From contig JAIVGS010000201.1 of NCBI GenBank assembly GCA_020201435.1, forward strand, positions 1 through 46,506: a DNA stretch of 46,506 nt, given 5' to 3'. The translations under genes and the position numbers were made by a program. Position 1 is the stretch's first letter; the number at the start of each line of letters is the position of its first letter. Under the pieces are notes generated by a model. The model was not told where the DNA came from and ran no database searches. It saw only the letters and a program-made list of their open reading frames with translations. This DNA comes from Myxococcales bacterium (lineage in GTDB: Bacteria; Myxococcota; Myxococcia; Myxococcales; 40CM-4-68-19). Below, one piece after another: positions 10,969 to 14,494 of this stretch.

Positions 10969-11472
10969 ATGATCGCGATGCTGTCGCTTTTTTTGCTGCT
11001 CGCCAGCACCGTGCGCGGGCCGGCCGACGTCGAGTCGCTGACCGCGGTTTCGGACGCGGTGGTGCACGCCTCCGTCGTCCGGACGTCGAGCGATTGGGGG
11101 AAGGGCGGCGGACAGATCTTCACCGCGGTCGTGCTCCGGACGATCGAGACGTGGAAGGGCGATCCGCGGCGCGCGATCACCGTCGTCGTGCCCGGAGGCT
11201 CGATCGGCGAGCTTTCGCAGACGGTCTCCGGCGTGGCGGAGTTCCGCGCCGGCGAAGAAGTCGTCGTTTTCCTTCGGGAACGATCGATCGCAGTATATTC
11301 AGTAGAGCGGCTGGCGCTCGGCAAGTTTGCCGTCGGGCCGCCTTCGGGACTGCCGAAACGCGCCATCCGCGATCGGAAGGGCCTGCAGTGCGTCGGCTGC
11401 GCCGCGTCGGAGAGCGACGACCTCCCGCTCGACGAGCTCCGCGCCCGCGTGCTGCGGAGCGCCCGCAAGTGA
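10969..11472 (+). CDS. Small exported protein preceding the matrixin genes
   Basis: 167-aa protein with signal peptide MIAMLSLFLLLASTVRG. The mature part (SLTAVSDAVVHASVV, IETWKGDPRRAITVVVPGG, FRAGEEVVVFL) looks like a small all-beta domain that occurs beside secreted matrixins in myxobacteria; that link rests on recollection rather than a search. A CVGCAA motif near the end may form a disulfide or bind metal. Its TGA overlaps the GTG of the protease gene as GTGA, so they are translationally coupled. A chaperone, inhibitor or accessory role for the protease is an inference from position. Confidence 0.8.
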   Translation: MIAMLSLFLLLASTVRGPADVESLTAVSDAVVHASVVRTSSDWGKGGGQIFTAVVLRTIETWKGDPRRAITVVVPGGSIGELSQTVSGVAEFRAGEEVVVFLRERSIAVYSVERLALGKFAVGPPSGLPKRAIRDRKGLQCVGCAASESDDLPLDELRARVLRSARK

Positions 11473-13559
11473 CCGTATTTCTGGCAGTTTTGCTGGCCTT
11501 CGAGACGCACCTCGCGCTCGACGGCCAGGTCGAGCGGTGGTCCTTCGCCGGCGACGGCCTGGTCACCGTCCGCCTGATCGATCCGCCCGCCGGCCTGCGC
11601 CTCAAACCGGGCGGCGACCTGCGCGCGGCGCTGACGATGGCCGCGCAGGCGTGGCAGGCGATCGAGACCGCGCACGTTCCGGTCCGATATCTCGGCCAGA
11701 TCCACCCGCGGGATCCGCTTCCCGGTGAGATCCTCTTTGACTTCGACACCGGCTCCGGGTTCCCCGGGGGCCGCGACGCCGCCGGCTCGACCGAGATCTT
11801 CGTCTCCGGCCACTCGATCGTCTCGGCGCGAATCCACTTGAACGCGGCCGACTTCGACTGGGCCACCGACGGAAGCACCTCCGCGCTCGACGTGCAGTCG
11901 ATCGCCGAGCACGAGATGGGCCATGCGCTCGGCCTCGCCCACCCCTGCGGCGATCTCGACACCCAGACCCCGTCCTGCTCGGCTCTACCGGCGGCGACGT
12001 TCCAGGCGCTGCAGCAGGACGTGATGTTTCCGTCGATCGCGCCCGGTCCGCGGCGGGCCCCCTCGCAGGACGATCGCGACGGCCTGACGTTCCTCCTGCC
12101 GGCCGCCGTCTCGCCCGAGATCGCGCCGGAGCTGACCGGCCTTCTGCCGTCCTGCCTCGAATTGGACGACCGGCTCGACGAGGACGACCGCATCCTCACC
12201 GGTCAAGACGTGGTCGTGGAAGTCGACCGCGCGCCGGATGCTTCGGTGCTCGAGCTGCTCAGCGCCGACAGCGTGATCGAGCGAACCACGCTCGTCCGCG
12301 ACGGCAAGGGCCGCCTGCTCGCGGCGGTCGGATCCGACATTCTGCACTCGGTGCGCCGTCTCGACGCCCGTCTCGTGGCCGCCTCCGGCAAGGCGAACGT
12401 CCTCTTCGGCGCCCTCGACGTCGCCAAATCCTGCTCCGCCCACGGCTGCTCCTCGTCCGGCGCGTCCGTGCTCGCATTGGCGCCTCTCGCATGGCTCGCG
12501 TTCCGCAAGAGCAAAAGCGCACCGCGGAGGCGCGGAGAGCGCGGAGGTTTTTTTTCAAAAAAAAGCTTTTCTCCGCGTCCTCTGCGCCTCCGCGGTGCGC
12601 TTGTAGCCGCAGCGTGCCTGTGCGCCGGTCCAGCCTTGGCCTACAAGCGGTCCGTGAATGCCGGGAACGTCTGCATCTGGTGGTCGACGCGGGGACACCC
12701 GTTTCAGATCGACGCCCAAGGCACGCCCGACGTGCCCGCCGCGCAGGCTTTCACCGCCATCCGCAAGAGCTTCCAGACCTGGGCGGACGTCGGGTGCTCG
12801 GACCTCGCCTTCCCCGACCAGGGCCTCTCGCTCGACCCGAAAAACCGCGTCGTCGGCTACTTCCCCGGCCAGTACAACCGCAATCTCGTCCTCTGGCGTA
12901 CCCGCCGCTGCGGAAACGGCAAGAACGGCGGCGTCGTTCCGCCCGGCGACAGCTGCCTCGGCGTCCAGTCCGGCTGCGCCAACGCCTACGACTGCTGGGA
13001 CCACGGCGACGGCGTGATCGCGACGACCACGACGACCTCGAACCGCTTCACCGGCCAGATCAACGACACCGACATCGAGATCAACGACTCGGTCGGCACC
13101 GACGGCACCAAGTTCATCTTCACCGCCGTCGACGGCCCCCCCTGCGTCGACCAGAACCAGACCGGATGCGTGCGGATCGACATCCAGAACACGATCACCC
13201 ACGAGGCCGGCCACACCCTGGGCCTCGATCACACGACCGACCTCAACGCGACGATGTACGCGACCGCCCCCGAGGGCGAGACCTCCAAGCGCGTCCTCGG
13301 CTCCGACGACATCCAGGGCATCTGCGACGTCTACCCGCGCGGCGCGCGGACGGTGACGTGCAACAGCGACCCGATCACGCTGACCGAATCAGGCACGTCC
13401 AACGGCGGCTGCGGCTGCTCGCACGCTCATGCCGGCCCGGGCGCGACACTGCTCGCGCTCGCCGCCTTTCTCCTCTCGAGGAGAAGGCCGAAGCCGGTGA
13501 TCATTACGAGCAGCGCCGCCGCGAGCGCGAGCTTGCGCGACATCGACCACAGGTCCTGA
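11469..13559 (+). CDS. Two matrixin-like zinc metalloproteases in one reading frame
   Basis: Continuous 696-codon frame from GTG 11469 (GTGA overlap). Module 1 (about residues 1-350) has a signal peptide, the zinc motif HEMGHALGLAH (about 148) and a Met-turn-like DVMFPS. It ends with a MYXO-CTERM-like tail: SCSAHGCSSSG, the helix ASVLALAPLAWLAF, then RKSKS. Residues about 350-378 are encoded by a palindrome. Module 2 then restarts with an apparent signal peptide ending AGPALA. It has NTITHEAGHTLGLDH (about 577) and TMYATAP, and ends with a second tail (NGGCGCSHAHAG, helix, SRRRP). Secreted or surface-anchored proteolysis is expected. A polypeptide with internal sorting tail and internal signal peptide is implausible as one mature protein, so either separate initiation, processing, or an indel in the T8/A8 run is likely. 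Confidence 0.75.
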   Translation: MTVFLAVLLAFETHLALDGQVERWSFAGDGLVTVRLIDPPAGLRLKPGGDLRAALTMAAQAWQAIETAHVPVRYLGQIHPRDPLPGEILFDFDTGSGFPGGRDAAGSTEIFVSGHSIVSARIHLNAADFDWATDGSTSALDVQSIAEHEMGHALGLAHPCGDLDTQTPSCSALPAATFQALQQDVMFPSIAPGPRRAPSQDDRDGLTFLLPAAVSPEIAPELTGLLPSCLELDDRLDEDDRILTGQDVVVEVDRAPDASVLELLSADSVIERTTLVRDGKGRLLAAVGSDILHSVRRLDARLVAASGKANVLFGALDVAKSCSAHGCSSSGASVLALAPLAWLAFRKSKSAPRRRGERGGFFSKKSFSPRPLRLRGALVAAACLCAGPALAYKRSVNAGNVCIWWSTRGHPFQIDAQGTPDVPAAQAFTAIRKSFQTWADVGCSDLAFPDQGLSLDPKNRVVGYFPGQYNRNLVLWRTRRCGNGKNGGVVPPGDSCLGVQSGCANAYDCWDHGDGVIATTTTTSNRFTGQINDTDIEINDSVGTDGTKFIFTAVDGPPCVDQNQTGCVRIDIQNTITHEAGHTLGLDHTTDLNATMYATAPEGETSKRVLGSDDIQGICDVYPRGARTVTCNSDPITLTESGTSNGGCGCSHAHAGPGATLLALAAFLLSRRRPKPVIITSSAAASASLRDIDHRS
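12515..12602. repeat. Long palindrome joining the two matrixin modules
   Basis: Arms of 32 bases (12515-12546 and 12571-12602) match in inverted orientation with three mismatches; the core words are ACCGCGGAGGCGC and GCGCCTCCGCGGT. The 24-base centre holds eight T, one C and eight A. It resembles the CCGCGGAGGCGC-type intergenic palindromes that I recall in many unrelated genomes. Here the frame runs through it without a stop, replacing any intergenic gap. Confidence 0.9.
12582..13559 (+). CDS. Second matrixin module read as its own gene (CTG start)
   Basis: Alternative model for the second half of the frame above. No ATG, GTG or TTG lies in frame before the mature domain except a TTG inside the signal peptide. 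CTG at 12582, within the palindrome's right arm, would give an apparently ideal signal peptide (MRLRGALVAAACLCAGPALA, cut before Tyr). The 325-residue product would hold the HEAGHTLGLDH zinc site, many Cys (GCSDLAFPD, RRCGNG, DSCLGVQSGC, PPCVDQ) and a MYXO-CTERM-like tail. The last 23 residues after the RRR cluster are unusual for such tails and lie in the overlap with the opposite-strand desaturase gene. Confidence 0.45.
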   Translation: MRLRGALVAAACLCAGPALAYKRSVNAGNVCIWWSTRGHPFQIDAQGTPDVPAAQAFTAIRKSFQTWADVGCSDLAFPDQGLSLDPKNRVVGYFPGQYNRNLVLWRTRRCGNGKNGGVVPPGDSCLGVQSGCANAYDCWDHGDGVIATTTTTSNRFTGQINDTDIEINDSVGTDGTKFIFTAVDGPPCVDQNQTGCVRIDIQNTITHEAGHTLGLDHTTDLNATMYATAPEGETSKRVLGSDDIQGICDVYPRGARTVTCNSDPITLTESGTSNGGCGCSHAHAGPGATLLALAAFLLSRRRPKPVIITSSAAASASLRDIDHRS

Positions 13560-14494
13560 CTCCACAACAGCGCGGTGGTCCCGACGATCGCCAGCACGAG
13601 CATCACCCACAACACCGCTGCTTCACCCGCCGACAGCTGCACGTCGTGCTTGCGCTGCTGCGCGCGAGTGATCTCCGGAGCGGGCGGGAAGTCCCACTCC
13701 GGCCCCTTGAGCCAGACGCGCAACTTATCGAATCCACGATAGTTTCTAGTCCGGCGGGCGATGTCGAAGAAGTGATGGATCTGCGCCCACATCGGGTCGA
13801 ACGACCCGAGCGGCTTGACCAGCCCGTACACCGGCTGCTCCTTCTCTTCCTCGAACGTGCCGAAGAGCCGGTCCCAGATGGAGAGCGTCGCCGCATAGTT
13901 CTTGTCGAGGTAGCGCGGGTTCACCGCGTGGTGGACTCGGTGCTGCGCCGGCGTGTTGAAGATCCACTCGTACCAGCCGAGCTTCCCGATCAGCTCGGTG
14001 TGGATCCAGAACTGGTAGAGCGTCGAAAGCGAATCCATCACCAGATACACGACCGGCGGTACGCCGAGCAGCGCGAGCGGCAGGTGCAGCGGCCAGATCG
14101 TCCACACGCTCAACACCGCCTGCCGCAGCGCGACGGCGAGGTTGTAGTCCTCGCTTTGATGGTGAACCACGTGCACCGCCCAGAGGGCATTGATCTCGTG
14201 CGACAGCCGGTGCCACCAGTAGTAGACGAAGTCGATGGTGAAAAACGCGATCACCCAGGGCCAGACGCTCCGCGGCGAGAAGCTGAAAATCCTGAACTGA
14301 TACAGCCAGTTATACCCGCCAGCCAGCACCGCGATCGAGAACACGAGCAGGATCTGCTGCGTCATCCCGCACGACAGATCGACGACCGAATCCGTGAACC
14401 GATGCAGCTTCAAGCCCCGGCGCCGGGCGAGCCAGATCTCCACGCCCATGAGCAGGAAAAAGAAAGGAATCGCCAGCGCGATCGGGTTCGGCAT
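13427..14494 (-). CDS. Sterol desaturase / fatty acid hydroxylase superfamily protein
   Basis: 355-aa integral membrane di-iron oxygenase. The His clusters HRLSH, HVVHH and HRVHHAVNPRYLDKNYA are arranged as in alkylglycerol monooxygenase and C-5 sterol desaturase relatives. Several helices surround them (IALAIPFFFLLMGVEIWL, VWPWVIAFFTIDFVYYWW). The substrate is probably a lipid tail, as an O-alkyl ether lipid, sterol or fatty acid; sequence alone does not say which. The last helix and tail (LALAAALLVMITGFGLLLERR) are encoded in the 133-bp convergent overlap with the matrixin frame. It is the last gene of the minus-strand series and is separated from tag by repeats. Confidence 0.85.
   Translation of the reverse strand: MPNPIALAIPFFFLLMGVEIWLARRRGLKLHRFTDSVVDLSCGMTQQILLVFSIAVLAGGYNWLYQFRIFSFSPRSVWPWVIAFFTIDFVYYWWHRLSHEINALWAVHVVHHQSEDYNLAVALRQAVLSVWTIWPLHLPLALLGVPPVVYLVMDSLSTLYQFWIHTELIGKLGWYEWIFNTPAQHRVHHAVNPRYLDKNYAATLSIWDRLFGTFEEEKEQPVYGLVKPLGSFDPMWAQIHHFFDIARRTRNYRGFDKLRVWLKGPEWDFPPAPEITRAQQRKHDVQLSAGEAAVLWVMLVLAIVGTTALLWSQDLWSMSRKLALAAALLVMITGFGLLLERRKAASASSVAPGPA

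Follow-up and report, generated by a model that had tools for sequence, protein, structure and literature searches.

Internal MYXO-CTERM signals have been described as rare, with one named example, MXAN_5598, which according to the authors may stem from two fused genes and have its N-terminal portion processed; in the same work, MYXO-CTERM is reported to be cut by myxosortase (PMC11980579). In M. xanthus traA/traB, the stop of the MYXO-CTERM gene overlaps the start of its exported partner by four bases (PMC3325183). With respect to repeats residing within genes, Rickettsia palindromic elements are portrayed, in a passage of PMC10969869 citing Ogata 2000 and 2002, as dispersed palindromes of 100-150 bp situated in frame in a coding gene. 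The window analysed here, a stretch of 46,506 nucleotides (contig JAIVGS010000201.1), derives from a soil relative of myxobacteria which encodes two predicted cell-surface proteases as one continuous protein.

The fused gene (11469..13559, + strand, as are all coding features given below) is one open frame of 696 amino acids with a GTG start and a TGA stop, composed of a first protease module (M1), a hinge and a second protease module (M2). It is preceded by a gene for an exported 164-aa protein of unknown family (10978..11472), whose TGA and the GTG start of the following fused gene overlap in the 4 nt GTGA. M1 begins with MTVFLAVLLAF (11469..11501), which from a reading of the sequence only resembles a signal peptide, and holds the zinc site HEMGHALGLAH (HExxHxxGxxH; 11910..11942), recognised by Pfam and in the alignment with relatives. 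Its end is an internal MYXO-CTERM-like tail (GCSSSGASVLALAPLAWLAFRKSKS; 12444..12518) consisting of GC, a hydrophobic helix and basic residues. A dispersed palindromic element, to which no strand is assigned, forms an in-frame insertion at 12505..12613, its outer limits being approximate. The core of the putative second signal peptide, GALVAAACLCAGPALA (12594..12641), keeps its position in the relatives G001, G002, G007 and G011, and cleavage is expected after ALA and before YKRSVN. M2 (12642..13487, including its MYXO-CTERM) is a myxosortase-dependent metalloprotease of the MXAN_2677/MXAN_2678 family, scoring 287.8 bits with NF041905 against a cut-off of 250. It carries the zinc site HEAGHTLGLDH (13200..13232) and a terminal MYXO-CTERM (13404..13487), for which TIGR03901 gives 24.1 bits in one search and 28.9 in another, against a cut-off of 20.

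Pfam finds two Peptidase_M10 stretches in the 696-aa protein, the Matrixin profile (PF00413) reaching 72.9 bits for the whole fused protein against a gathering cut-off of 24. In the profile search, M1 fails the NF041905 cut-off (17.7 bits against 250), and it is identified as a diverged matrixin with an intact HExxHxxGxxH. A first-pass annotation of this DNA had described a single frame with protease 1, a sorting-like tail, a palindrome, a signal peptide, protease 2 and a second tail, lacking an ordinary stop and an ordinary start at the join. This description agrees with our results, as the frame 11469-13559 is open throughout and no in-frame ATG or GTG occurs in the part of the window hinge that separates the M1 tail helix from mature M2; the sole in-frame TTG of that interval sits in the second cleavage site. 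The palindrome itself was recognised correctly, but its length, given as 88 bp, had to be revised to about 109 bp (12505-12613), with outer ends that resemble the two end types of its family. Past the terminal Arg cluster, the 3′ end of the fused gene shares 133 nt (13427-13559) with a convergent fatty-acid hydroxylase frame (13427-14494), and C-terminal extensions beyond the terminal MYXO-CTERM are similar in relatives. An AlphaFold model of the fused protein, obtained with a three-row alignment, reached a mean pLDDT of only 31.6 and was discarded.

Both tails had initially been regarded as MYXO-CTERM. For M2 this is borne out by TIGR03901, while the M1 tail of the window keeps the layout of GC, helix and basic residues but gives no match above the curated cut-offs of either TIGR03901 or TIGR03382. 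The M1 tail of the sister species G002 is above the TIGR03382 cut-off (16.0 vs 15.85), and that of G001 lies just under the TIGR03901 cut-off (18.6 vs 20). When five M1 sequences are aligned, G326 and C327 are invariant and are followed by the helix and then by K/R. The hinges are basic, holding 12, 11, 4, 10 and 10 K+R and at most one acidic residue.

The locus was compared in the 11 family genomes having it, G000 being the window's own genome and most family genomes being draft MAGs. Fusion of the two modules is seen with the palindrome in G000 and G002 and with no palindrome in G001, G007 and G011. M2 alone, directly behind the gene for the upstream 164-aa protein, is found in G005, G006, G008, G009 and G010. 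In G003, the palindrome is present with M2 in frame with it, and an M1 tail shorter by one base is out of frame with M2. The frame break of G003 is located near base 1490 of locus L034 and could be either a real change or an assembly error. The joint differs in its details among the fused genes: in G001 the M1 tail ends in RRKR, directly followed by TLLLALLFAEPALA, and G007 has lost the catalytic portion of M1 but keeps the M1 start, its tail and an unbroken frame into M2. Outside the family, a single frame of G015 combines an M1-like module with M2 through a zero-length linker, where RRRR is directly followed by AAILFAALLIAPSAHA. One frame runs through both modules here and in G001, G002, G007, G011 and G015. 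The M1 zinc site is intact in G000, G002, G003 and G011. In G001 (L035), EHLGH takes the place of HExxH, which points to an inactivated protease within the fused protein. M1 used as a query against the genome contigs recovered only four known relatives and two weak non-myxococcal matches.

In regard to the palindromic element, its arms (12515-12546 and 12571-12602) measure 32 nt each and are 91% complementary, and the RNA fold of 12505-12613 reaches -75.2 kcal/mol (z = -9.6 vs shuffles). Rfam matches of the element to microRNA-type hairpins were far below gathering scores and were set aside as chance matches to be met with any long stem. The element occurs at about 40 places in its own genome (75 matches, both strands), and such dispersed inverted-repeat copies are what is looked for in REP/RAYT- or MITE-type elements. 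It was detected in four of the 195 phylum genomes searched, namely its own genome, G002, G003 and G010, with many copies in the latter three, and at E 1e-8 it is absent from the other 191. As candidates for a partner transposase of the RAYT type, Y1_Tnp genes are present in 11 of 12 family genomes and number 16 in the window's own genome; the element-bearing G010 has just one. Nearly all examined copies are intergenic, the window copy being the in-frame exception: among 21 copies examined in its own genome, it is the only one that stays open from end to end and has coding-like sequence on either side. Other copies (L002-L028, L117-L138) commonly have the stop codon of a flanking gene 11-12 nt ahead of their CACC core, and convergent gene pairs enclose 13 of 26 copies, a placement reminiscent of a family of spacers or bidirectional terminators. 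The copies show two recurrent end types, ...GGCTTCAAGCG-CACC and ...AGCAAAATCT-CACC; the left end of the window copy resembles the ...AGCAAAATCT-CACC type and its right end the ...GGCTTCAAGCG-CACC type. In the frame of the gene, the left end reads KSKS and the right end ALVAAA, the element therefore supplying part of the putative basic loop and part of the predicted second signal peptide, whose first hydrophobic residues are encoded by its right end.

We propose, with a probability of roughly 0.62, that the locus represents a real fusion of two tandem matrixin-type surface proteases into one Sec-exported polyprotein, which the palindrome joined later. In such a polyprotein, signal peptide 1 would lead to the export of M1, and the MYXO-CTERM-like helix of M1 would stop the transfer, leaving the basic loop in the cytoplasm. 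Signal peptide 2 would then restart export for M2, which ends in its own MYXO-CTERM. Cuts by signal peptidase after each signal peptide and by myxosortase at the Cys of each MYXO-CTERM would yield two proteases, each with its own anchor, in a fixed ratio. The dispersed palindrome would have entered, in frame, the hinge of an already fused gene, adding about 30 residues to the cytoplasmic loop. Three genes of the CPBP family, which is the family of myxosortase, are present in the window's own genome. Cleavage, a fixed ratio and a surface location would follow by analogy with the published myxosortase model (PMC11980579). The processed polyprotein envisaged in the first-pass annotation is thereby retained as the best reading, its shared frame being observed and its processing predicted.

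A rather unlikely alternative is internal initiation, at a CTG at the palindrome or at a TTG, GTG or ATG elsewhere, giving two proteins besides the fusion product. The residues that follow the CTG, RLRGALVAAAC, would serve well as a signal peptide, and an in-frame ATG or GTG does occur in some hinges (G011, G007, L249, L252 and L261). However, the window hinge after the helix offers no ATG, GTG or plausible TTG start, and in G001 a GTG is found only within the helix and a TTG only within the signal-peptide core. Moreover, an internal start cannot terminate M1: no stop follows it, and therefore ribosomes finishing M1 continue into M2 and the fusion is made anyway. A CTG restart, as considered earlier, could thus act beside the fusion but not as a substitute for it.

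It is likewise unlikely that M1 is a decaying pseudogene whose stop was lost without effect, so that only M2 matters. Such decay would be in line with the altered M1 zinc motif of G001, the lost catalytic part in G007, the frame shift in G003 and the absence of M1 from five relatives. On the other hand, the comparison of G000 with G002 gives a dN/dS of 0.29 for M1, 0.11 for M2 (86 codons compared) and 0.43 for the hinge, and because of the values for M1 and M2 both modules are considered to be under protein-level selection; HExxHxxGxxH is also intact in the four genomes named above. The preserved M1 start, tail and frame of G007 would be expected if the M1 start is needed for M2 expression. 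G002 is a sister species (MAG DP_35) represented by an independent contig, and it shares the frame, the T8-C-A8 run and the hinge length of 66 codons with G000; the hinge has remained without an indel at a synonymous divergence of 0.47. The G000/G002 comparison speaks against free decay of M1 and, equally, against a base-count error.

According to the view first put forward, the fusion came about when the palindrome took the place of the M1 stop and the M2 start, and this insertion created the internal sorting signal. In G000, G002 and G003, the element indeed covers the place where a stop and a start would be expected, and its ends encode basic and hydrophobic residues. This origin is nevertheless improbable, since G001, G007, G011 and G015 show the same fusion without the element; the comparison with palindrome-free relatives that had been suggested alongside this view found M1-M2 still in one frame in G001, G007 and G011. 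In the M2 tree, the fused rows form one clade (support 86/95, drawn open) with G009, which has M2 alone, inside it, and the three element-bearing rows are nested together (97/91) within this clade. The tree appears to set G001, G007 and G011 apart from the branch of the element-bearing species, provided that their placement holds at better resolution. Because palindrome-free relatives are also fused, the palindrome probably did not make the fusion. The simplest history would place the fusion first and the palindrome second, with loss of M1 in some lines, and independent fusions could also have contributed.

An assembly or sequencing artefact, in which two separate genes look joined because a wrong base count in T8 or A8 masks a stop or a change of frame, could be suspected in a draft MAG of 363 contigs, where homopolymer runs and a long hairpin are error-prone and G003 shows a one-base frame difference in its M1 tail, but it is highly improbable given the identical T8-C-A8 counts, hinge length and frame in the separately assembled G002 of a different species, the fusions of G001, G007, G011 and G015 without any T8-C-A8 run, and the occurrence of hinges in two single-contig survey genomes (L240 in G038, L249 in G017), so the indel once offered as the alternative to a polyprotein finds little favour.

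The frequency of such arrangements was surveyed by listing TIGR03901 matches over the cut-off in ten genomes, and 100 of them, from eight genomes, were read onward in frame. A stop followed within 15 amino acids in 88 of the 100. Eleven matches continued open for at least 60 amino acids in frame, with a basic cluster, a signal-peptide-like hydrophobic stretch and a new domain, and the remaining one (L267) was open for 56 amino acids with no signal-peptide-like stretch adjoining the cluster. As a control, read-through of the 88 true stops gave an open frame together with a hydrophobic start in just 5 cases. Two of the 11 continuing cases are those in the single-contig genomes G038 and G017. The exported second modules include TraB-like proteins (L252, L261 and L264), a beta-barrel of the MXAN_2562 family (L253) and a paired CXXCH protein (L182). 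In L253 (G001), an MXAN_2561-like first module and the MXAN_2562-family second module share one frame; the first scores 72.5 bits against the MXAN_2561 family from its last part, the cut-off of 150 being set for the whole protein, and the two family names are consecutive M. xanthus locus tags. TraB-like outer membrane proteins behind an internal MYXO-CTERM, in one frame with it, were observed in G001 and G009. A matrixin also runs on in frame into a homolog of the 164-aa upstream gene in L094 (E = 1e-6) and, as a weak match, in L098 (E = 0.001). As judged from these sequences, the M1-M2 fusion is one case of a recurrent architecture. Roughly one in ten MYXO-CTERM matches in this sample of 100 is internal, an estimate from eight genomes chosen non-randomly over the phylum, as against the "rare" of the literature.

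Tandem gene pairs could provide the source of such fusions. The tandem NF041905 pairs of Myxococcaceae have, as computed from coordinates, an identical +2 frame offset in 65 of 67 cases. The five junctions read (L046, L050, L051, L052 and L053) all show a 4-nt GTGA overlap, with the second signal peptide starting right behind the Arg cluster of the first MYXO-CTERM, and the common offset suggests the same GTGA overlap in the remaining Myxococcaceae pairs. In the M1/M2 pair of G145, the overlap is ATGA. With stop and start overlapping as in GTGA, one small net indel removes both together. A tandem pair like those in Myxococcaceae is the most likely origin of the fusion.

We further put forward, tentatively and at somewhat less than even odds, a class of Myxococcota surface polyproteins in which the internal Arg cluster would double as the n-region of the next signal peptide. 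Cleavage of the resulting membrane hairpin by myxosortase at one outer side and by signal peptidase at the other would release two surface proteins in a fixed ratio; the class would have originated repeatedly from overlapping pairs, and a mobile palindrome would be tolerable in the cytoplasmic turn. In the papers searched, no cytochrome-type polyprotein precedent was found. If these proteins are processed, they would offer bacteria a simple route to linked surface proteins in a fixed ratio, and their internal tails would directly test whether myxosortase accepts internal sites. There is also an effect on annotation, as such proteins resemble single odd multidomain proteins or sequencing errors.

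Among the known systems, MXAN_5598 resembles the present gene in having a mid-frame MYXO-CTERM followed by a second exported module, yet it joins an adhesin to an OmpA-type barrel, whereas two metalloproteases with a repeat in their joint are found here. The likeness to MXAN_2677/MXAN_2678 (NF041905) lies in M2, which passes the curated cut-off, and in the tandem pair of matrixins. In contrast, the Myxococcaceae pair consists of two genes in different frames, and M1 here is below the NF041905 cut-off. TraA/TraB of M. xanthus also combine a MYXO-CTERM gene with an overlapping exported partner, but remain separate genes there, while in G001 and G009 TraB-like domains follow an internal MYXO-CTERM within one frame. 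Rickettsia palindromic elements, as described in PMC10969869, resemble the present element in behaviour, being dispersed palindromes inserted in frame, and differ from it in that nearly all its examined copies are intergenic, with one in-frame case in a predicted cytoplasmic loop. An internal MYXO-CTERM is known once in the literature, from MXAN_5598 (PMC11980579), and the joint of two metalloproteases with a repeat described here differs from it.
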